Assembly: GCA_030041455.1 (NCBI GenBank)
Contig: JASHNV010000100.1
Coordinates: forward strand, 1 to 37,245
DNA from: Spirochaetia bacterium
GTDB taxonomy: Bacteria > Spirochaetota > Spirochaetia > DAHUYW01
Reading direction: 5' to 3'
DNA length: 37,245 nt
Position 1 is the first letter of the stretch. Every line of letters starts with the position of its first letter. A program made the position numbers and the translations under genes. The notes beneath the pieces are model-generated. The model ran no database searches. It worked only from the letters and a program-made list of their open reading frames with translations, and was not told where the DNA came from. This document shows, in pieces, positions 21,658 to 29,321 of this stretch.

Positions 21658-21686
21658 ATCTTAATAACGATCCGGTTGAAAATCAA
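21658..21686 (-). promoter_or_regulatory. Promoter of the DUF4097 gene
   Basis: Minus strand TTGATT (21686-21681), 17 bp, TAAGAT (21663-21658), in an AT-rich patch; AGGAGG and ATG 21638 follow. Confidence 0.6.
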
Positions 21687-21729
21687 GAAATTTAACTCCA
21701 TGGTGCAGTTTTTTAATATTGCGCTCCGC

Positions 21730-21758
21730 TTGACCGACTCACCGTTCGCTAGTAGCTT
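21730..21758 (+). promoter_or_regulatory. Promoter of the Smr-domain gene
   Basis: TTGACC (21730-21735), 17 bp, TAGCTT (21753-21758). ATG 21769 is 10 nt further on without a Shine-Dalgarno sequence, so the mRNA may be leaderless. The same hexamer pair style occurs at fabD. Confidence 0.5.
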
Positions 21759-21768
21759 ACAGTCCACC

Positions 21769-22152
21769 ATGGACTACGCGAAGGCTCTCGGCGAGTGGCT
21801 CGATCGACATCCTCCGGTCCCCAAGGAGCCGGAGGAGGAGCCGTCGAGACGAGCGCTCGGAGAGGAGCGGCGGGCGCTCCGAAGGCTCCGGCCCGAGGCT
21901 CGGCTCGACCTCCACGGGCTCACGGTCGAGGAGGCGCTCGGCCGCGCCGACCGGTTCTTACGCGATTCCAAGGCTCAAGGCTTCCGGAAGGTGCTCATCA
22001 TCCACGGGAAGGGCAACCACTCCGCCCAAGGACGCGGGGTTCTCCGCGAGAAGGTGCGCGAGCTCGTGAGAAATCATCCATTATCGGGGGAGACAGGCGT
22101 GCCCGATCCCGCCGAAGGGGGCGACGGAGCGATCTGGGTGATCGTTCGGTGA
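21769..22152 (+). CDS. Small Smr-domain protein (putative endonuclease)
   Basis: 127 residues. The Smr core runs from LDLHGLTVEEALGRADRFL (46-64; LDLHG holds the conserved His49) to KVLIIHGKGNHSAQGRGVLREKV (74-96; HGKGxHS and GxLR motifs), with a charged N-terminal helix before it. Stand-alone Smr proteins of this size are related to YdaL/SmrA/SmrB; MutS2- and SmrB-type Smr domains cut DNA or mRNA on collided ribosomes. ATG 21769 is chosen because the promoter lies just upstream. The longer frame would start before the promoter. Convergent with infA, 12 nt between stops. Confidence 0.88.
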   Translation: MDYAKALGEWLDRHPPVPKEPEEEPSRRALGEERRALRRLRPEARLDLHGLTVEEALGRADRFLRDSKAQGFRKVLIIHGKGNHSAQGRGVLREKVRELVRNHPLSGETGVPDPAEGGDGAIWVIVR

Positions 22153-22164
22153 CGGGGCGCGGTA

Positions 22165-22383
22165 TCAGCGCTCGCGGTAGATGATTCGACCGCGAGTCAA
22201 ATCGTAGGGAGAGAGCGCGACCCTGACTTTGTCGCCGGGTACGATGCGGATATAGTGCTTTCTCATTTTGCCCGACAGGTGGGCGAGGATGACGTGTCCG
22301 TTCTTCAACTCAACGCGGAACATGGTGTTCGGGAGAGACTCTTTGACGATGCCCTCAACTTCGATTGCTTCCTCTTTTGCCAC
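22165..22383 (-). CDS. infA: Translation initiation factor IF-1
   Basis: 72 residues, the exact usual length, one OB-fold S1 domain: [57 protein letters not shown]. These blocks are nearly invariant in IF-1. It binds the 30S A site during initiation. Start codon is GTG at 22383 with GGGAGG 5 nt upstream. The gene stands alone, not in the ribosomal protein operon, and is divergent from a DksA/TraR gene. A strong promoter is at 22407-22435. Confidence 0.97.
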
Positions 22384-22406
22384 TCACGCCTCCCGATGGT
22401 CGTCCC

Positions 22407-22435
22407 ATACTATGGAGACGAAAGTAGTTTGTCAA
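22407..22435 (-). promoter_or_regulatory. Promoter of infA
   Basis: Minus strand TTGACA (22435-22430), 17 bp, TAGTAT (22412-22407), start near 22400, 17 nt before the GTG. Confidence 0.75.
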
Positions 22436-22500
22436 CGTATCCCGGCCGGAGCGGGAGGCCCGGACGGGACGATTGCGGAAAATGGAAGTTCTTGACTTTT

Positions 22501-22523
22501 CCAACCATATCGTACATGGTTGG
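22501..22523. promoter_or_regulatory. Inverted repeat upstream of the DksA/TraR gene
   Basis: CCAACCAT-N7-ATGGTTGG, perfect 8-bp arms. TTGACT (22492-22497) lies just before it, but no good -10 is found at 16-18 bp, so the promoter is undefined. The repeat could be an operator over the promoter or a leader hairpin. Confidence 0.5.
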
Positions 22524-22557
22524 TTTTCCAAAAATCCCGGGTTGGAAGGTTACCGGT

Positions 22558-22914
22558 ATGGAGAAGACTTTTATCGAAGGTCAGAAGGAATCTCTCCTGC
22601 GACTCAAGGAAGAGATCATTGAGAATCTGATCGCCGAAAGCGCGGATTTCAAGACTCTCGTTGAGGATATGGACCCGAAAGACCTGGTGGATGTCGCGGC
22701 CGACGATATAGACCGCAAGACCCTCGACACGCTGAGCTCGAAGGACATCAAGCGGCTTCGCCTCATCGACTCGGCGCTTGCGAGGATCCAGAACGGCCGC
22801 TACGGCCTGTGCATGAAGTGCAACAAAAAAATCCCGAAGGAGCGTCTCGAGGCGATTCCCTACGCGCTCATGTGCATCGAGTGCCAGACCTCCGACGAGC
22901 GGCGCAATCGGTAG
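22558..22914 (+). CDS. DksA/TraR family zinc-finger protein
   Basis: 118 residues. A coiled-coil N-terminal half carries DLVDVA (42-47), matching the DxxDxA tip motif that reaches into the RNA polymerase secondary channel. It is followed by a C4 zinc finger, YGLCMKC (Cys85, Cys88) and MCIEC (Cys106, Cys109), with the family's IPxxRLEAxPxAxxC spacing. Start ATG 22558 has GGAAGGT upstream; the longer frame overlaps the infA promoter region and is rejected. Shorter than E. coli DksA (151 residues), as in other short DksA-like proteins. Likely a transcription modulator with ppGpp. A neighbouring infA and DksA-like gene is something I recall from Treponema, unverified here. Confidence 0.9.
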   Translation: MEKTFIEGQKESLLRLKEEIIENLIAESADFKTLVEDMDPKDLVDVAADDIDRKTLDTLSSKDIKRLRLIDSALARIQNGRYGLCMKCNKKIPKERLEAIPYALMCIECQTSDERRNR

Positions 22915-22941
22915 CGACCCCGAAAAGCGCCGAATTAAGTC

Positions 22942-22980
22942 CTTATCTCTGGGCCGGCCCTGCCGATAGCTAAAGATAAG
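22942..22980. promoter_or_regulatory. Inverted repeat ahead of the 129-residue hypothetical gene
   Basis: CTTATCT (22942-22948) pairs with AGATAAG (22974-22980), enclosing the palindrome GGGCCGGCCC (22951-22960). It ends 8 nt before ATG 22989 and overlaps the ribosome site region (AGAGGA). It may be a leader hairpin limiting translation or an operator. Confidence 0.35.
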
Positions 22981-22988
22981 AGGACCGT

Positions 22989-23378
22989 ATGGAGATCAGA
23001 GCGATTTCCCCCGAGACGATTCCCCTCGTCAACATCGTGGCGGCGCGCGTCAACACGACGAGCACCGTCTCGGTGCCCGTCGACCCGGACGCTCTCCTCT
23101 ACGCGCGCTTCAAGCACATCTCCGGAGTGCCGGCGACCGACGGCGACCAGGGGGTGTCGATCGAGCGGCTGCGCATCCTCGACAGTCTCATCGACCGCCT
23201 CGTCGCGACGAACGGCCAAAAGGCCTACGTGCGCGACGTGAGGGGCATGTCGCCGAACGAGGCCGAGACGCTGATCTCCCGCTACGAGCAGGAGCTGCAT
23301 TCCGCGCTCCGCGCCTCCCGGCCGGAGCCCTACCGGGACTCCGCCGCAGCGGGTATCCTCCTCAATCTCGTCGCATAG
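22989..23378 (+). CDS. Hypothetical protein, 129 residues
   Basis: Starts MEIRAISPETIPLVNIV with AGAGGA 5-6 nt ahead. It is a soluble, mixed alpha/beta protein without signal or membrane segments. The central part HISGVPATDGDQGVSIERLRILDSLIDRLV suggests two helices. I recognise no family. Codon use matches the neighbours and the open frame is well bounded, so it is probably a real gene. Its 3' end overlaps the convergent metallo-hydrolase gene by 17 bp. It follows the DksA-like gene by 74 bp, perhaps co-transcribed. Confidence 0.7.
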   Translation: MEIRAISPETIPLVNIVAARVNTTSTVSVPVDPDALLYARFKHISGVPATDGDQGVSIERLRILDSLIDRLVATNGQKAYVRDVRGMSPNEAETLISRYEQELHSALRASRPEPYRDSAAAGILLNLVA

Positions 23379-24063
23379 CGCCGCTACCCAGGGCGTGGCT
23401 GAAAAAAGGATTATGAAGCTGCTCGCGCTCGATGGTCGTGAAAGGCCCGTGGCCCGGAAAGACGCGGGTGCTCGGCGGGAGGGTGAAGAGCCGCGTGCGG
23501 ATGGTCTCGCGAAGCAGCGCTCGATCGCGGGCGGTGAGGCCGGTCTCGCCGATGCCCTCGAAGAACAGGGTGTCTCCCGAGAATAGGAGCTCCTGGCCTT
23601 CGCTGTACAGGCACATGCTTCCCGGCGTGTGGCCGGGAGTGTGAATGACGCAGAGCTCGGAACCGAATACGAAATCCCCTTCATGGGAGAAAACGTCGGG
23701 TTTCGGAAGGTTCGCGATCGCCTGCTCGTAGGAGGCGCCCGAGCCGGATTCCATCTTCGCGATGTTCCTTCGATGCTTTTGCTTCGCGGCCCGGCCGAAG
23801 TAGGAGGCGTCGGCCTCGTGGACCGCGACGGGCACGCGAATGGACAGCTCCTCGAAATGCCGCCGGATGCTCTCGGCGGCGGAGATGTGGTCGATGTGCC
23901 CGTGGGTCAGCACGATTCCGCGCGGCCGCAAGTTCTTGACGGTCATGCGCTCGATGATCTTGTCTTCTTCGGCGCCGGGGTCGATGACCAGGCACTCCTT
24001 CTTCCATTCCGAGTAAATGTACGCGTTGGTATTCATCGGACCTACAGCAATTCGCTCGACCAT
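23362..24063 (-). CDS. Metallo-beta-lactamase-fold hydrolase, glyoxalase II-like
   Basis: 233 residues from ATG 24063. MVERIAVGPMNTNAYIY is the standard start of this branch. Metal ligands are complete: HGHIDH (His54, His56, Asp58, His59), His141/His145 in HTPGHTPGS, Asp164 in SGDTLF, and His205 in FPGHGP. The family hydrolyses thioesters such as S-lactoylglutathione or related substrates and includes YcbL/YqgX-type proteins lacking strict glutathione specificity. A longer frame to 24123 would overlap the divergent membrane-protein gene start and the extended -10 region. The 17-bp tail overlap with the convergent gene is unusual but both frames look intact. Confidence 0.88.
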   Translation of the reverse strand: MVERIAVGPMNTNAYIYSEWKKECLVIDPGAEEDKIIERMTVKNLRPRGIVLTHGHIDHISAAESIRRHFEELSIRVPVAVHEADASYFGRAAKQKHRRNIAKMESGSGASYEQAIANLPKPDVFSHEGDFVFGSELCVIHTPGHTPGSMCLYSEGQELLFSGDTLFFEGIGETGLTARDRALLRETIRTRLFTLPPSTRVFPGHGPFTTIEREQLHNPFFSHALGSGAMRRD

Positions 24064-24071
24064 GCTACAAT
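24063..24071 (+). promoter_or_regulatory. Extended -10 promoter for the membrane protein gene
   Basis: TGC-TACAAT: TG one base before a good -10 hexamer (24066-24071), about 38 nt upstream of ATG 24110. No clear -35, as expected for an extended -10 promoter. It overlaps the first codons of the divergent hydrolase gene. Confidence 0.45.
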
Positions 24072-24109
24072 CACGGTACGTCTTTTGATTCGAAGTATCA
24101 AGGGCGGCT

Positions 24110-25297
24110 ATGGACTCACTCATCCTCGTCCTTGCGCTCGCGGTGGTTTTCTACGGGCTGATTCCGGGCTTCGGCGCCTTCTACGTCCGCCGTCGATGGC
24201 GGGAGTTCAGGCGGCGGATCATCAGCGCTTCCCTCTATCCTCTCGCGGAATACCGGAGCCTGAGGCGGACGGAGCACGGCTTCGTCGGCAATCTTCGTTT
24301 TTTTGGGGGCTTGGAGGCGACCCAGGGCGACGACGTGGTCTGGCTGCGCAGCGGAAGCCTCTCGGTCGCCGCCGAGCTCAAGAAGGTGGCCGTCTACTGG
24401 CTTCCGTCCTTTGCGTTCGTGGAGGCGGAGGGACCGGTCGAGATCAACGAGGAATCCCTCCCCGACGAGACACCGACCAGGGTCCGCTGGGAGCGGATCT
24501 TCTCGCTTCCCGAGGGGACGCAGGTCTTCGTGAGCGGCCCCCTGTACATCGACCGCGGCCGGCCGGTCTTCCGCTCCGACCGCCAGCGCTCCCTCACCGT
24601 CGTCATCTACGACGGCCAGCAGAACACCATCCTCAGGCGCTCGATCTGGGGAGGCCGCCATCGCAACGAGTACGTGAACCCCTTCACCCCCGGCTCGATC
24701 ACCGCGGGGTCGTTCTCGCTCCTCATCCTTGCCTACATCCTGCTCCGCTCGCCGCAGCTCAGGTTGCCGGCGATCATCGCCCTCACGGCGAGCCTTTTCC
24801 CGCTGCTCGTCCTCCTGCCGCCGGGGCTGCTGTTCTTCTTTCTCTACAGGAACTGGTGGAAGGAGGCGCGCTTCCTGCGAGCCGAGCGCGACATGCTTCT
24901 CCTGCCCTTGAGGTACTTTCCGGATTTTCCGACCGGGAGCGCTTCGGTGCGCCTGCCCGACGGCGAGGCCTACGTCATGGAGCGCCACGCCGAGCGCGCC
25001 GAGGCGATCGCCCGCCTCGGCGCCGGCAAAATCAGGCAGGCGACGCGGCTCGGCTCCGCCGCGCTGCGCGAAGCCGACTACTACGTCTTCGGCGGTCCCG
25101 CGCAGGGAGGCCCGCTCGGGCGGCCGCTTGACCCGATGGCGGAGCTCATCATGATCCCCGGCCATCCGCTCGAGCTCTCGCGGCGCTGCTCCAAGCGCGC
25201 GAGGTTGTTCGAGCTCCTCTCGACCGGCGCGATCGTGGTCGGGCTCCTCATGAACCTGTGTATCTTGCTCGTCCTGCTCGCGGCGCTGATCAAGTAG
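24110..25297 (+). CDS. Membrane protein of unknown function, 395 residues
   Basis: Predicted topology: N-terminal helix (about 2-25), a soluble region of 165 residues rich in beta strands (including VFVSGPLYIDRGRPVF), two central helices (about 200-246), a basic soluble part, and a C-terminal helix (about 370-395, GAIVVGLLMNLCILLVLLAALIK). I recognise no named domain, but the double soluble/double membrane layout and phrases such as EGTQVFVSGPL and ADYYVFGGPAQ recall membrane proteins with one outer-facing beta domain (E3-ligase-like MULAN/GIDE domain layout), a loose resemblance only. It overlaps the convergent helicase-like gene by 8 bp at its 3' end. Confidence 0.75.
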   Translation: MDSLILVLALAVVFYGLIPGFGAFYVRRRWREFRRRIISASLYPLAEYRSLRRTEHGFVGNLRFFGGLEATQGDDVVWLRSGSLSVAAELKKVAVYWLPSFAFVEAEGPVEINEESLPDETPTRVRWERIFSLPEGTQVFVSGPLYIDRGRPVFRSDRQRSLTVVIYDGQQNTILRRSIWGGRHRNEYVNPFTPGSITAGSFSLLILAYILLRSPQLRLPAIIALTASLFPLLVLLPPGLLFFFLYRNWWKEARFLRAERDMLLLPLRYFPDFPTGSASVRLPDGEAYVMERHAERAEAIARLGAGKIRQATRLGSAALREADYYVFGGPAQGGPLGRPLDPMAELIMIPGHPLELSRRCSKRARLFELLSTGAIVVGLLMNLCILLVLLAALIK

Positions 25298-26822
25298 AGC
25301 CGGACTGCTCGTCGCGCTTGCGGGCGCGGTTGACGGTGATCTTTCTGCCGCGGTAGTCGGTTCCGTCGAGCAGGCCGATGGCTTTGTCGGCGAGGCTTTC
25401 GGGAAGGTCCACGAAGGAATAGTTGTCGAGAACCTTGATGTTCCCGATCGCAGCGGCGTCGATTTTGAGCGCCGCGGAAAAGAGCTTGGAGAGATCCTTC
25501 GGAAACGCCTTGCGGTTCTTGCCGACGCTCACGAAGAGCGTCTTCATCTCCCCCTGAGGAGCCCGGCCGGCCGCCGGCTGGCCGCCGAACAGCTCTTTGA
25601 GGATGAAGGCGGCGAAATAGCCTCGCAGAAACAGCGGGACGTGCCGTCCGATGATCTTGCGAAAGCGGTTCAGCTCGTCGGGATCCTCGTTCTCCTTGAT
25701 CCGCTTGAGGATGCTCGTGATCCGCCCTTTCAAGACCTCATCGGGCGAGGGGTTGCTGCTCCTATCCACGTGGTGAACCTCCTGAAATCGGTGAATGGGG
25801 CCGGTTTCTTCCGGCGAGCTCAGAATGGCGAAACGGCCGCGCTCGCAGGCCCCCTTTGCCCAGGCGTCGGCGGCCTTGGTCGCCGGGACGCCGTAGAAGA
25901 AGAGCGCTTCGCAGGCGTCGGGCGCCTCGCCTCCTTCGGCGAGCTCGGCGACGACCGCGCGGAGCGCGCCGGAGGCGAGATCCCTCGACAGCGTCTGTCG
26001 CTCCTCGGCGCCGGTCCCCGCGCCGAGGTAGGCGGAGGAGATGCCCTCGTGATCGAGGTAGGCGCCCAGGGCCCGCGCGGCGGCCGGGGTGCGGCACAGT
26101 ACGAGCGAGCGGGGGAGGCCGGCCGACCACATGAGGTCGGCGAGGAGGCGCGGCTTGGACTCCTCGCTTTCGGCCTCATAGAGGTCGTAGCGGACCTGCG
26201 GGTCGGGAGAGGTCCGAAGGACCACCGGCCGCCTGAGGAGGGCGGCGAGCGGATGCGGCTCCGCGACCTCGGGATCGATGACCACGGTCTGAACTTTGGA
26301 GGGCAGCTTCGAGCAGATGAAAAGGACGTCCTTGTCGAACGCCGTCTCCTCGAAATCGAGCCCGAGCTCGATGTAGACCCGCCGGACCCGGCCGAGGGCG
26401 AGATTGTCGCGCCGAATGTGGTCGATTATCCGTTCGGACGTGCCGATAACCACCTCAAAGGGGTGCGCAAGTAGCTGCAGCTCCTTGCGGATGTTTTCAT
26501 CAACGCCGAGCTCGACGGCGGTGAGTTTCCGCGAGCCCGCCGAGGCGAGCTCCTTGATCCGCCGCCCGAACCATTTGACGCTTTCGACGCTCGACGCGAT
26601 GATAACCGTGTGAAGTCCGGCGCCCTCGCGCTCGTGGAGAAGCGGTACGACAAGAGCATGGCCAGTGTCCTCAACATTCGGAACTTCGATCACGACGTCT
26701 CGTCCCGAAAGGACGGGCACGCCGTACCTGCGCTCGGCCTTCGTCGGGCTGCCGTACCCAAGCTCGCGGCTTACCGTCAGAAAATCTCCCTCCCCTCGAG
26801 ATGTCCCGAAAATTTGAAACAC
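25290..26822 (-). CDS. DEAD-box helicase-like pseudoenzyme with DbpA RNA-binding domain
   Basis: 510 residues from GTG 26822 (AGGA 7 nt ahead). The fold order is that of a DEAD-box protein, but the catalytic motifs are gone. GYGSPTKAERRYGVPVLSGRDVVIEVPNVEDTG shows the Q-motif region without Gln and Walker A replaced by VPNVEDTG (47-54). GTSERIIDHI (127-136) stands for GTPGRLxD. DEAD is IELG (151-154), SAT is ICS (169-171), and no HRxGRxGR is found. RecA-like domain 2 is recognisable (LVLCRTPAAARALGAYL, 240-256). Residues 427-500 form a DbpA/CsdA RNA-binding domain (MKTLFVSVGKNRKAFPKDL, NIKVLDNYSFVDLPESLADKAIGLL). ATP hydrolysis is therefore unlikely; RNA or ribosome binding may persist. The frame is long and undisturbed, so it is under selection. 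A strong promoter precedes it. Confidence 0.85.
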   Translation of the reverse strand: MFQIFGTSRGEGDFLTVSRELGYGSPTKAERRYGVPVLSGRDVVIEVPNVEDTGHALVVPLLHEREGAGLHTVIIASSVESVKWFGRRIKELASAGSRKLTAVELGVDENIRKELQLLAHPFEVVIGTSERIIDHIRRDNLALGRVRRVYIELGLDFEETAFDKDVLFICSKLPSKVQTVVIDPEVAEPHPLAALLRRPVVLRTSPDPQVRYDLYEAESEESKPRLLADLMWSAGLPRSLVLCRTPAAARALGAYLDHEGISSAYLGAGTGAEERQTLSRDLASGALRAVVAELAEGGEAPDACEALFFYGVPATKAADAWAKGACERGRFAILSSPEETGPIHRFQEVHHVDRSSNPSPDEVLKGRITSILKRIKENEDPDELNRFRKIIGRHVPLFLRGYFAAFILKELFGGQPAAGRAPQGEMKTLFVSVGKNRKAFPKDLSKLFSAALKIDAAAIGNIKVLDNYSFVDLPESLADKAIGLLDGTDYRGRKITVNRARKRDEQSGST

Positions 26823-26862: not shown

Positions 26863-26890
26863 ACTATAGGCGATTTCCGTCGTTTGTCAA
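26863..26890 (-). promoter_or_regulatory. Promoter of the helicase-like gene
   Basis: Minus strand TTGACA (26890-26885), 16 bp, TATAGT (26868-26863); start near 26856, leaving a leader of about 35 nt. Confidence 0.75.
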
Positions 26891-26974: not shown

Positions 26975-27634
26975 ATGGAGAGGACGATTCGCGCCGTGCT
27001 GTTCGACATGGACGGGGTCATCGTCGATTCCGAAGGGTTCATCCGCGACGCGGCGATCGCGATGTTCCGCGAGCTCGGTCTCGCCGTCGCGCCGCGGGAC
27101 TTCGTCCCCTTCGTCGGCACCGGCGAGAACCGCTACCTCGGCGGCGTCGCCGAGCGGTACGGCCTCGCGATCGACGTCGAGGCGGCAAAAAAGCGCACCT
27201 ACGAGCTGTTCGGCGACCTCATCAAGGGCTCCCTGAAGGCCCTTCCCGGCTCCGTCGAGTTCATCGAGCTCTGCCGGAGCCGCTCGCTGCGCATCGCGCT
27301 CGCGACGAGCGCAGACCCGGTCAAGGCTCGCGCCAATCTCGCGGAGATCGGGCTTTCCTTCGCGACCTTCGACGCCGTCGTGAGCGGGCTCGACGTCGCG
27401 CGCACGAAACCCGATCCGGACATTTACCTCGCGGCGGCGAAGCGGCTCGGCGTCGCCCCCGAGCGCTGTCTCGTCGTCGAGGACGCGCTCACCGGGCTCG
27501 CCGCCGCGCGAGCCGCGGGGTCGAGGTGCCTCATGCTCACGACGAGCTTCCCGCGAGAGACGATCGAGCCGCTCCGGCCCGACTGGATCGCCTCCGACCT
27601 TTCGAAGGCGCCTCCGGAGGCGCTTGAATGGTAG
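26975..27634 (+). CDS. HAD-superfamily hydrolase, beta-phosphoglucomutase/CbbY-like
   Basis: 219 residues. Motif I FDMDGVIVDSEG (Asp11 nucleophile, Asp13), cap domain inserted after it (LAVAPRDFVPFVGTGENRYL), motif II LATSAD, motif III Lys in ARTKPDPDIYLAAA, motif IV VEDALTGLAAARAAG. This is the type I cap subfamily of sugar phosphatases and phosphoglucomutases. It begins the run HAD - K+ channel - cNMP-binding protein: its stop overlaps the channel ATG by 7 nt, suggesting coupled translation, although a metabolic link is not evident. No ribosome site is clear ahead of the ATG. CCGGA-N9-TCCGG (around 26931-26949) precedes it. Confidence 0.9.
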   Translation: MERTIRAVLFDMDGVIVDSEGFIRDAAIAMFRELGLAVAPRDFVPFVGTGENRYLGGVAERYGLAIDVEAAKKRTYELFGDLIKGSLKALPGSVEFIELCRSRSLRIALATSADPVKARANLAEIGLSFATFDAVVSGLDVARTKPDPDIYLAAAKRLGVAPERCLVVEDALTGLAAARAAGSRCLMLTTSFPRETIEPLRPDWIASDLSKAPPEALEW

Positions 27635-28809
27635 CGAAGCGCCTGACCTCCTTTCGAAAGCGCGCGGAGGGGTTCGTCTGGACCTTCCGCCATACCCGCT
27701 TGCCGCGGCTCATCGTCGCGTTCACCGCGTTCTTCCTCGCCGCGGGAGCCGCCGTGTCGCTCTTCGAGCGGGGGCGCAACCCCCAATTCTCGACCATCGC
27801 CGACGGCTGGTGGTGGGTCATCGTCACCTTCAGCACGACCGGCTACGGCGACAAGGTCCCGGTGACTCCCGAGGGGAGGATCACCGCGGTCTTGACGATC
27901 CTCGCGGGCATCGTCGCCATGGCGGTGATATCGGGATCGCTCGCCTCGTTCTTCGTCGACCAGAATTCCCGCGCAAGGAGAGGCCTGATGCAGATAACGC
28001 GGTTGCAGAACCATTTCATCATTTGCGGATGGAAGGACCAGATGCAGGAGATTCTCCTCGACATGCTGAGCCTCTCCCCGGATCTTTCCGCGCGGATGAT
28101 CGTGATCGTGTCGAACATCGAGGGCGAAAAGGTCGACGAGCTGCGCCACGCCAAGGAGCTGAAGACCGTCAATTTCGTCCGCGGCGACTACTTCTCGGAC
28201 TCCGCGCTCGCGCGCGCCAACGTCAAGCAGGCGCGGAAGGTCCTCGTTCTCTCGGACGTCTACGAGAGCGCGGCGACCTCGGAGGTCGACTCGAAGACCG
28301 TCATGACGGTGCTCACCGTCAAGTCGATATCGAAAGACATCTACGTCTGCGCGGAGCTCATCGATCGGAAATACGAGGTCTACCTCAAGCAGGCGATGTG
28401 CGACGAGATCATCTTCACGAGCGATTTCAACAAGCGCATCCTCGGCAGCGCGTCGGCGATCAGCGGAATGTCGCACATCATCCGCGAGCTCCTCTCGCAC
28501 GAGGTAAGCACCACCCATCTCGCGACGCTCGACATCCAGCCGGATTTCATCGGGAAGCCCTACCACGAGTTCAGGACGTTCATGCACCTCGAGACCGGAC
28601 GGGTTCTTCTCGGGATCCTCGAGAACACCGGGTCGCCGAACAGGATGAAGCTTGACGCGCTGCGCGACGCGCAGAAGACCTCCGACGTCTCGCAGCTCGT
28701 CGCCAACCTCCAGTCGGTGAAGGGCCTCGAGGTCAACAAGCCGGTCTTGGTCCCGGAGGACGCCTACGTCATCCCGAAGCACTCGCGCGCGATCGTGCTG
28801 GAGCGCTGA
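27628..28809 (+). CDS. Two-TM potassium channel with RCK (TrkA-N) regulatory domain
   Basis: 393 residues. TM1 about 27-47 (RLIVAFTAFFLAAGAAVSLFE), pore helix GWWWVIVTFST, selectivity filter TTGYGD (70-75), TM2 about 86-110. The RCK/TrkA-N Rossmann domain starts at NHFIICGWKDQMQEILLDML (128-147) and continues with VRGDYFSDSALARANVKQARKVLVLSD. A further C-terminal ligand-type domain includes MHLETGRVLLGILENTG. The protein forms a tetrameric cation channel with a cytoplasmic gating ring in the MthK/Kch manner. It begins 7 nt inside the HAD gene and ends 2 nt before the cyclic-nucleotide-binding protein gene, so all three are one transcript. Confidence 0.93.
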   Translation: MVAKRLTSFRKRAEGFVWTFRHTRLPRLIVAFTAFFLAAGAAVSLFERGRNPQFSTIADGWWWVIVTFSTTGYGDKVPVTPEGRITAVLTILAGIVAMAVISGSLASFFVDQNSRARRGLMQITRLQNHFIICGWKDQMQEILLDMLSLSPDLSARMIVIVSNIEGEKVDELRHAKELKTVNFVRGDYFSDSALARANVKQARKVLVLSDVYESAATSEVDSKTVMTVLTVKSISKDIYVCAELIDRKYEVYLKQAMCDEIIFTSDFNKRILGSASAISGMSHIIRELLSHEVSTTHLATLDIQPDFIGKPYHEFRTFMHLETGRVLLGILENTGSPNRMKLDALRDAQKTSDVSQLVANLQSVKGLEVNKPVLVPEDAYVIPKHSRAIVLER

Positions 28810-28811
28810 CC

Positions 28812-29321
28812 ATGGCGCAAGCTTTGTCCTCCAACGAGGCGCTCCTCGAGAAGCTCCGCCAGATTCCGCTTTTCGCGGGCATCAAGGGAAATCCCGGGTA
28901 CATGGAGCGGCTTGTCGCGATCTGCACGGTGCGCGCCTTCAAGCGCGGCGAGGAGATCATCCGAGAGGGCGACCTCGGCTCGCAGATGTACGTTCTCGGG
29001 CTCGGAAGGGTCGGGATCCAGAAGCGCACGAGGGCGGGGGACACCTACACGGTCGTGACCTTGAAGGCCGAGCAGAACGTGTTCTTCGGGGAGCTCGCCC
29101 TGATCGACGACGAGAGGCGGTCGGCGACCGTGACCGCGATCGAGGACTCCGAATGCCTCGTCGTAGCGAAAGAGGACTTCACGGTTCTCGGCGACGAGTT
29201 CCCGGAAATAGGCCTACCCATCACGCGCGAGATCTCCAAGATCCTCTCCGCCCGCCTTCGCTCGACCACCGAGGACATGATGACGATCTTCGACGCGCTC
29301 GTGAACGAGCTCAAGGAGTAG
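28812..29321 (+). CDS. Stand-alone cyclic-nucleotide-binding domain protein
   Basis: 169 residues, a single CNB domain with a helical C-terminal tail and no helix-turn-helix, kinase or membrane part. LRQIPLFAGI starts the domain and FKRGEEIIREGDLGSQMYVLGLGRVGI is the beta-roll. The phosphate-binding cassette reads FFGELALIDDERRSATV (91-107) with the Gly-Glu pair (93-94) and Arg103, which contact ribose and phosphate in cAMP-binding proteins. It lies 2 nt behind the K+ channel gene, which suggests that it is a separate gating subunit or partner of the channel. That pairing is an inference from gene order. Whether cAMP or cGMP binds cannot be read. Confidence 0.9.
   Translation: MAQALSSNEALLEKLRQIPLFAGIKGNPGYMERLVAICTVRAFKRGEEIIREGDLGSQMYVLGLGRVGIQKRTRAGDTYTVVTLKAEQNVFFGELALIDDERRSATVTAIEDSECLVVAKEDFTVLGDEFPEIGLPITREISKILSARLRSTTEDMMTIFDALVNELKE

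Follow-up and report, generated by a model that had tools for sequence, protein, structure and literature searches.

The window analysed here is the whole stretch of 37,245 nucleotides from a Spirochaetia bacterium (contig JASHNV010000100.1), and the gene under study is its minus-strand ORF 25290-26822, which encodes a 510-aa protein from a GTG start. The gene, its promoter and the parts of its product are as follows.

25290..26822, minus strand: pseudohelicase coding sequence, an ATPase-dead, DEAD-box-derived protein of 510 aa with a DbpA-type RNA-binding domain (RBD) (ORF, profile matches and alignment)
26863..26890, minus strand: sigma-70-like promoter TTGACA-16-TATAGT, about 41 nt 5' of the GTG start (consensus match only, 11/12)
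26208..26822, minus strand: RecA1-like domain with degenerate ATP-binding motifs, residues 1-205 (alignment and profile)
26655..26684, minus strand: degenerate Walker A VPNVEDTGHA, residues 47-56, with Thr at the Lys53 position (alignment)
26388..26447, minus strand: conserved motif Ib block, starting GTSERIIDHIRRDN, residues 126-145 (mean pairwise identity 52%; 68/69 members of the family have Arg137)
26358..26369, minus strand: degenerate DEAD motif ELGL, residues 152-155 (alignment)
26283..26342, minus strand: conserved F..D..FI.SK block, residues 161-180 (alignment)
25788..26207, minus strand: RecA2-like domain, residues 206-345, in which motifs IV-VI have degenerated or disappeared; many relatives lack the domain (alignment)
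25578..25727, minus strand: conserved helical linker, residues 366-415, sitting where Hera and DeaD have a dimerization domain (alignment; PF25399 only 0.11)
25314..25541, minus strand: DbpA/YxiN-type RBD (RRM fold), residues 428-503; F430, Y468 and F470 are invariant (profile and alignment)

An Rfam scan of the window gave no match. The near-consensus promoter that the sequence-only reading had proposed matches the consensus at 11/12 positions, and the region holds three promoter-like sites, compared with 0.1 expected. The pseudohelicase gene is convergent with the gene of a conserved membrane protein (24110-25297, plus strand), the two overlapping by 8 bases at their ends; the membrane protein matched no Pfam family, and its homologues neighbour the pseudohelicase gene in most relatives. 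Onward lie genes for a metallo-beta-lactamase protein, a protein of about 130 aa, DksA/TraR and Smr, and then the BatD-like/bat region. The block from BatD-like/bat to the membrane protein, followed by the pseudohelicase gene, is conserved across Spirochaetia and spans 21676-25297 in the window; six relatives have an IF-1-like ORF inside it. On the other side of the pseudohelicase, relatives have a divergent OmpA-family gene. In the window, 27628-29321 (plus strand) resembles, by reading of the sequence, a potassium channel/TrkA-type protein and, after it, a cyclic-nucleotide-binding protein.

The motifs of the window protein were read from an alignment with CshA (5ivl) and DbpA (7pli). The protein is related by sequence to CshA, DbpA and eIF4A, and it has lost the catalytic motifs that define a DEAD-box RNA helicase (SF2): motif I GxGKT is changed to NVEDTG, the DEAD of motif II to ELGL and the SAT of motif III to DPE, and motif VI (HRIGRTxRAG, in its required form HRxGRxxR) is absent. 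The earlier reading of DEAD as IELG was right about the degeneracy, although offset by one residue. The Pfam DEAD match reached only 0.0023, under its cut-off. Both RecA-like domains were recognisable through the family profile, which matched CshA at 2e-51 over residues 6-385, whereas the window sequence alone gave a weak match.

The same losses were found in a same-genus homologue (54% identical) and throughout the family. Among 69 non-redundant members with RecA1, none has an intact DEAD quartet or an intact SAT, and motif VI is present in 0/41 full-length members, whereas GKT, DEAD, SAT and motif VI are all intact in 9/9 canonical spirochaete helicases with an RBD. Restoration of the motifs in homologues, which had been named as the outcome that would count against an ATPase-dead protein, thus did not occur. 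The claim that all ATPase motifs are lost holds for the window protein but not family-wide, since GK[ST] is still present in 21/69 relatives and D-E at motif II in 5/69, and motif Ib is kept. Because of these remnants, motif decay in the family is graded, with the window protein at its fully degenerate end, and some of the relatives retaining GK[ST] or D-E could still bind nucleotide. A sequencing error or a pseudogene was ruled out by the shared losses, the intact frames and dN/dS.

We next consider the C-terminal domain. The Pfam DbpA RBD profile (PF03880) matched the window protein at 3.8e-18 with 65.7 bits, above the cut-off of 25.6, and it matched 31/31 family members scanned. A C-terminal domain without a DbpA profile match, the other outcome held to speak against the sequence-only reading, was therefore not what we found, and together with the motif alignment this bore out the proposal that a DbpA-type RBD is joined to an ATPase-dead relative of the DEAD-box proteins. 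Compared with known domains, the RBD was closest to that of YxiN (2g0c/3moj, 7e-11), followed by E. coli DbpA (5.5e-7) and the DeaD RBD (0.014). The DbpA equivalog NF008744 gave 70.2 bits against a curated cut-off of 524 bits, so that the protein falls outside it, and the dimerization profile PF25399 stayed below its cut-off in the linker region (E 0.11, 13 bits versus 23). An AlphaFold2 model built from three sequences had a mean pLDDT of 49 and was usable in its RBD part only; the top Foldseek match of this low-confidence model was DbpA (7pli).

The RNA contacts of YxiN, including the guanine site and Lys427, which reads a loop uridine, have been described (PMC3695512). In the window protein, I459-G460-x-I462 corresponds to the main-chain guanine site of YxiN (I436, G437, I439), and the RRM-type aromatics F430, Y468 and F470 are invariant in the family; Lys427, a loop contact, is not conserved, and its equivalent is Ala450. 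Hairpin 92 (h92) of 23S rRNA is no more than a possible target. A 50S assembly factor, whose RBD would dock on 23S rRNA near h92 while the dead core would hold neighbouring helices until assembly proceeds, is a possibility that we hold tentatively. It is suggested by the h92-specific YxiN RBD as the best solved-structure match of the C-terminus, by the shared guanine site, by weak Pfam matches of the core to the eukaryotic ribosome-assembly proteins CMS1 (4/31 members) and Utp25_C (2/31 members) at E 0.01 or better, and by the DksA/TraR neighbour and the IF-1-like gene nearby in six relatives. However, the reader of the loop uridine is not conserved, and the related RBD of Hera recognises GGGPyr and not the loop of h92 (PMC3695512), so the fold does not fix the target.

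A profile search, using a profile of 137 C-terminal positions, found orthologues in 346/395 Spirochaetia genomes and 124/133 genera; relatives were found in 54/60 related genomes. No family match was obtained by the C-terminal profile search in f19, a group of small, Borreliaceae-like genomes. A link to the Borrelia RNA-chaperone candidates BB0749, BB0713 and BB0796 was rejected, as none was apparent from the descriptions in their paper (a disordered region, a zinc ribbon and a Skp-like protein) and f19 has no match. Of the 122 non-redundant loci that we collected, 41 retain both RecA domains, 28 retain RecA1 alone and 38 are core-less; a further 6 are short forms that belong to other classes of Spirochaetota, and 9 are canonical RBD-bearing DEAD-box helicases. 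From other Spirochaetota classes, L153 and L155-L158 encode stand-alone proteins of 166-201 aa, in which a helical N-terminal part precedes a DbpA-type RBD and which are either sister to the Spirochaetia family or independent of it. In many family genes (L001, L003, L004, L017, L033 and others) the start codon appears to be GTG and not ATG, and in several of them a stop codon is part of a Shine-Dalgarno-like TAGGA; low or regulated translation is a possible consequence.

Full-length loci have the neighbourhood order in common with the RecA1-only loci L177-L181 and with the core-less L182, L183 and L187, and no RecA remnants adjoin the core-less genes. The treponeme loci L184 and L185 lack the shared neighbourhood and are linked to the family by sequence only. 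The C-terminal tree gave 23 architecture changes; it is weakly resolved, with 56/119 inner branches open, and only a minimum number of changes was used, its well-supported branches forcing at least five changes for the core-less label and at least five for the RecA1-only label. The simplest reading of the three forms is repeated loss of the core, because the domain order equals that of canonical helicases. The sequence-only proposal of a scaffold that keeps both RecA domains cannot be the general function, as many members lack RecA2 or the whole core.

Conservation was uneven along the protein. Among 22 full-length members, mean pairwise identity was 52% for the RBD and also for the motif Ib block, 44% for the F..D..FI.SK block, 39% for the helical linker, 22% for the N-terminal rest of RecA1 and 17% for RecA2. 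The best-kept part of the core is thus the motif Ib block, GTxxRIIDHIRRxN, in which Asp134 and Arg137 are each present in 68/69 members. The nine canonical helicases have another residue at position 137, so Arg137 is a derived basic residue fixed within this family; Lys172 behaves similarly (61/69). Motif Ib of DEAD-box proteins touches the backbone of the RNA, and the helix that follows is a wedge bending the RNA, as in the eIF4AIII and Vasa structures.

Selection was estimated per domain in close pairs as Nei-Gojobori dN/dS, and the values were 0.07-0.19 for the dead RecA1, 0.07-0.22 for RecA2 in most pairs and 0-0.09 for the RBD. In the closest pair, the window protein and L003, RecA2 gave about 0.58, a rough value since dS is high. 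Because dN/dS is low in most pairs, the dead core is constrained in most lineages, and it is perhaps relaxing in the window lineage. That the gene is simply decaying and functionless is hardly credible: the lost core motifs, the relaxed RecA2 of the nearest pair and the repeated loss of core domains would suit such a gene, but the frame is intact and under purifying selection, the gene is retained class-wide with a strongly conserved RBD, and a homologue is abundant as a protein.

The earlier reading had also advised looking for an active DbpA elsewhere in the genome. In the organism's own genome (95% complete), none was found: the sole PF03880 match is the window gene, and the separate active DEAD-box proteins encoded there have no RBD. 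At least 19/60 related genomes encode an active helicase whose sequence continues from motif VI to an RBD, and most of the 60 show no clear one. A competitor or anti-helicase, occupying the sites of an active DbpA/DeaD helicase as the sequence-only reading had suggested, is therefore very unlikely. Such a helicase does co-occur with the family in those 19 or more genomes, but the own genome has nothing for the protein to compete with, and a simple antagonist of active DbpA is not what this distribution describes.

The family has a core-less member in Treponema pallidum. In genome G076, the minus-strand ORF 7748-8449 of L185 encodes only the linker and a DbpA-type RBD. The tp1030 primer ACGTTTCGTGCGCTCATAAT (PMC7864442) matches L185 at about 8453, adjoining this ORF, which we therefore identify as TP1029. 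This protein was termed a putative helicase (PMC7864442), and it has no helicase domain. It has been reported as an uncharacterized 25 kDa protein with an NSAF of 7.4 (mean = 1), in a table of the 50 most abundant detected proteins (PMC5015957). A structural RNA binder would account for such abundance more readily than an enzyme of low copy number. This result corrects the annotation of an abundant protein of the syphilis spirochaete, named a putative helicase and lacking a helicase domain.

Hfq (PF17209) and ProQ (PF04352) were undetected in 60/60 Spirochaetia genomes, with working controls; this is a class-wide correlation only, as members without the pseudohelicase gene (e.g. f19) also lack both. 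The absence, together with the abundance of the T. pallidum homologue, which is expected of a global RNA binder, would agree with a protein in the role of Hfq/ProQ, which regulates mRNAs and small RNAs post-transcriptionally or acts as their matchmaker. We regard this role as rather doubtful, since the co-absence is a single class-wide pattern with no independent gains or losses, and the survey of such RNA binders covered Hfq and ProQ. Sequence cannot separate this general mRNA/sRNA role from ribosome assembly. It is unlikely that a class-wide ATP-independent chaperone, which arose as a DEAD-box helicase lost its motor step by step, is a main global RNA chaperone or matchmaker of Spirochaetia, replacing Hfq and ProQ. 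In a bacterial class that has neither of these, the family is a candidate for an RNA chaperone.

Stated generally, the pseudohelicase is probably an ATP-independent RNA-binding or chaperone protein. Starting from the observed motif loss, same-locus orthology and selection on the core, and from anatomy, conservation and published abundance, we infer RNA binding in vivo, dimerization, chaperone activity and the RNA target. The RBD would dock on RNA as an anchor, and the helical linker might pair two copies. The motif Ib surface that survives on RecA1 (TxxRIIDHIRR, including the new arginine) might then grip or bend a neighbouring RNA strand, so that the protein could act as an RNA chaperone or an RNP-assembly clamp with no ATP turnover. 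Where the extra RecA1 grip is dispensable, the core would erode and then be deleted, leaving linker and RBD as in TP1029.

Compared with known systems, the family resembles DbpA/YxiN in the RecA1-RecA2 order and the C-terminal PF03880 RBD, which is closest to that of YxiN. DbpA and YxiN are h92-specific helicases, whereas this family lacks the ATPase motifs, its RecA domains erode or vanish, and a helical linker is added. The family works like the DbpA helicases and is not a member of them, as the defining catalytic motifs were tested and are not in place. With Hera of Thermus, DeaD/CsdA and CshA it shares the layout of core, helical or dimerization segment and RBD (PMC3695512), its core being closest to CshA; Hera and CshA, however, are active ATPases, whereas the window family has no ATP motifs and its linker scores below the cut-off of PF25399. 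A partial literature search found no paper on this family and no bacterial pseudohelicase family, which agrees with the sequence-only suggestion of an undescribed protein type. The nearest precedent is eukaryotic Utp25/Def, an SSU processome pseudohelicase that has kept the DEAD-box fold and lost the catalytic motifs; it has been put forward as the first pseudohelicase to be fully validated (PMC9539457). Utp25/Def and Cms1 share with the present family a retained DEAD-box-derived fold without catalytic motifs, but they are eukaryotic and have no DbpA RBD. The window protein matched no Utp25/Cms1 family profile, we read the weak CMS1 and Utp25_C matches as convergent decay of the same fold, and the decay of Utp25/Cms1 was presumably independent. 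Utp25 and Cms1 retain the core, whereas it has been lost in many Spirochaetia lineages. Pseudohelicases have hardly been described, and here one family presents three stages of motor loss, partly at one locus, with the RNA-binding end kept, which makes an ATP-free role of a DEAD-box protein directly testable.
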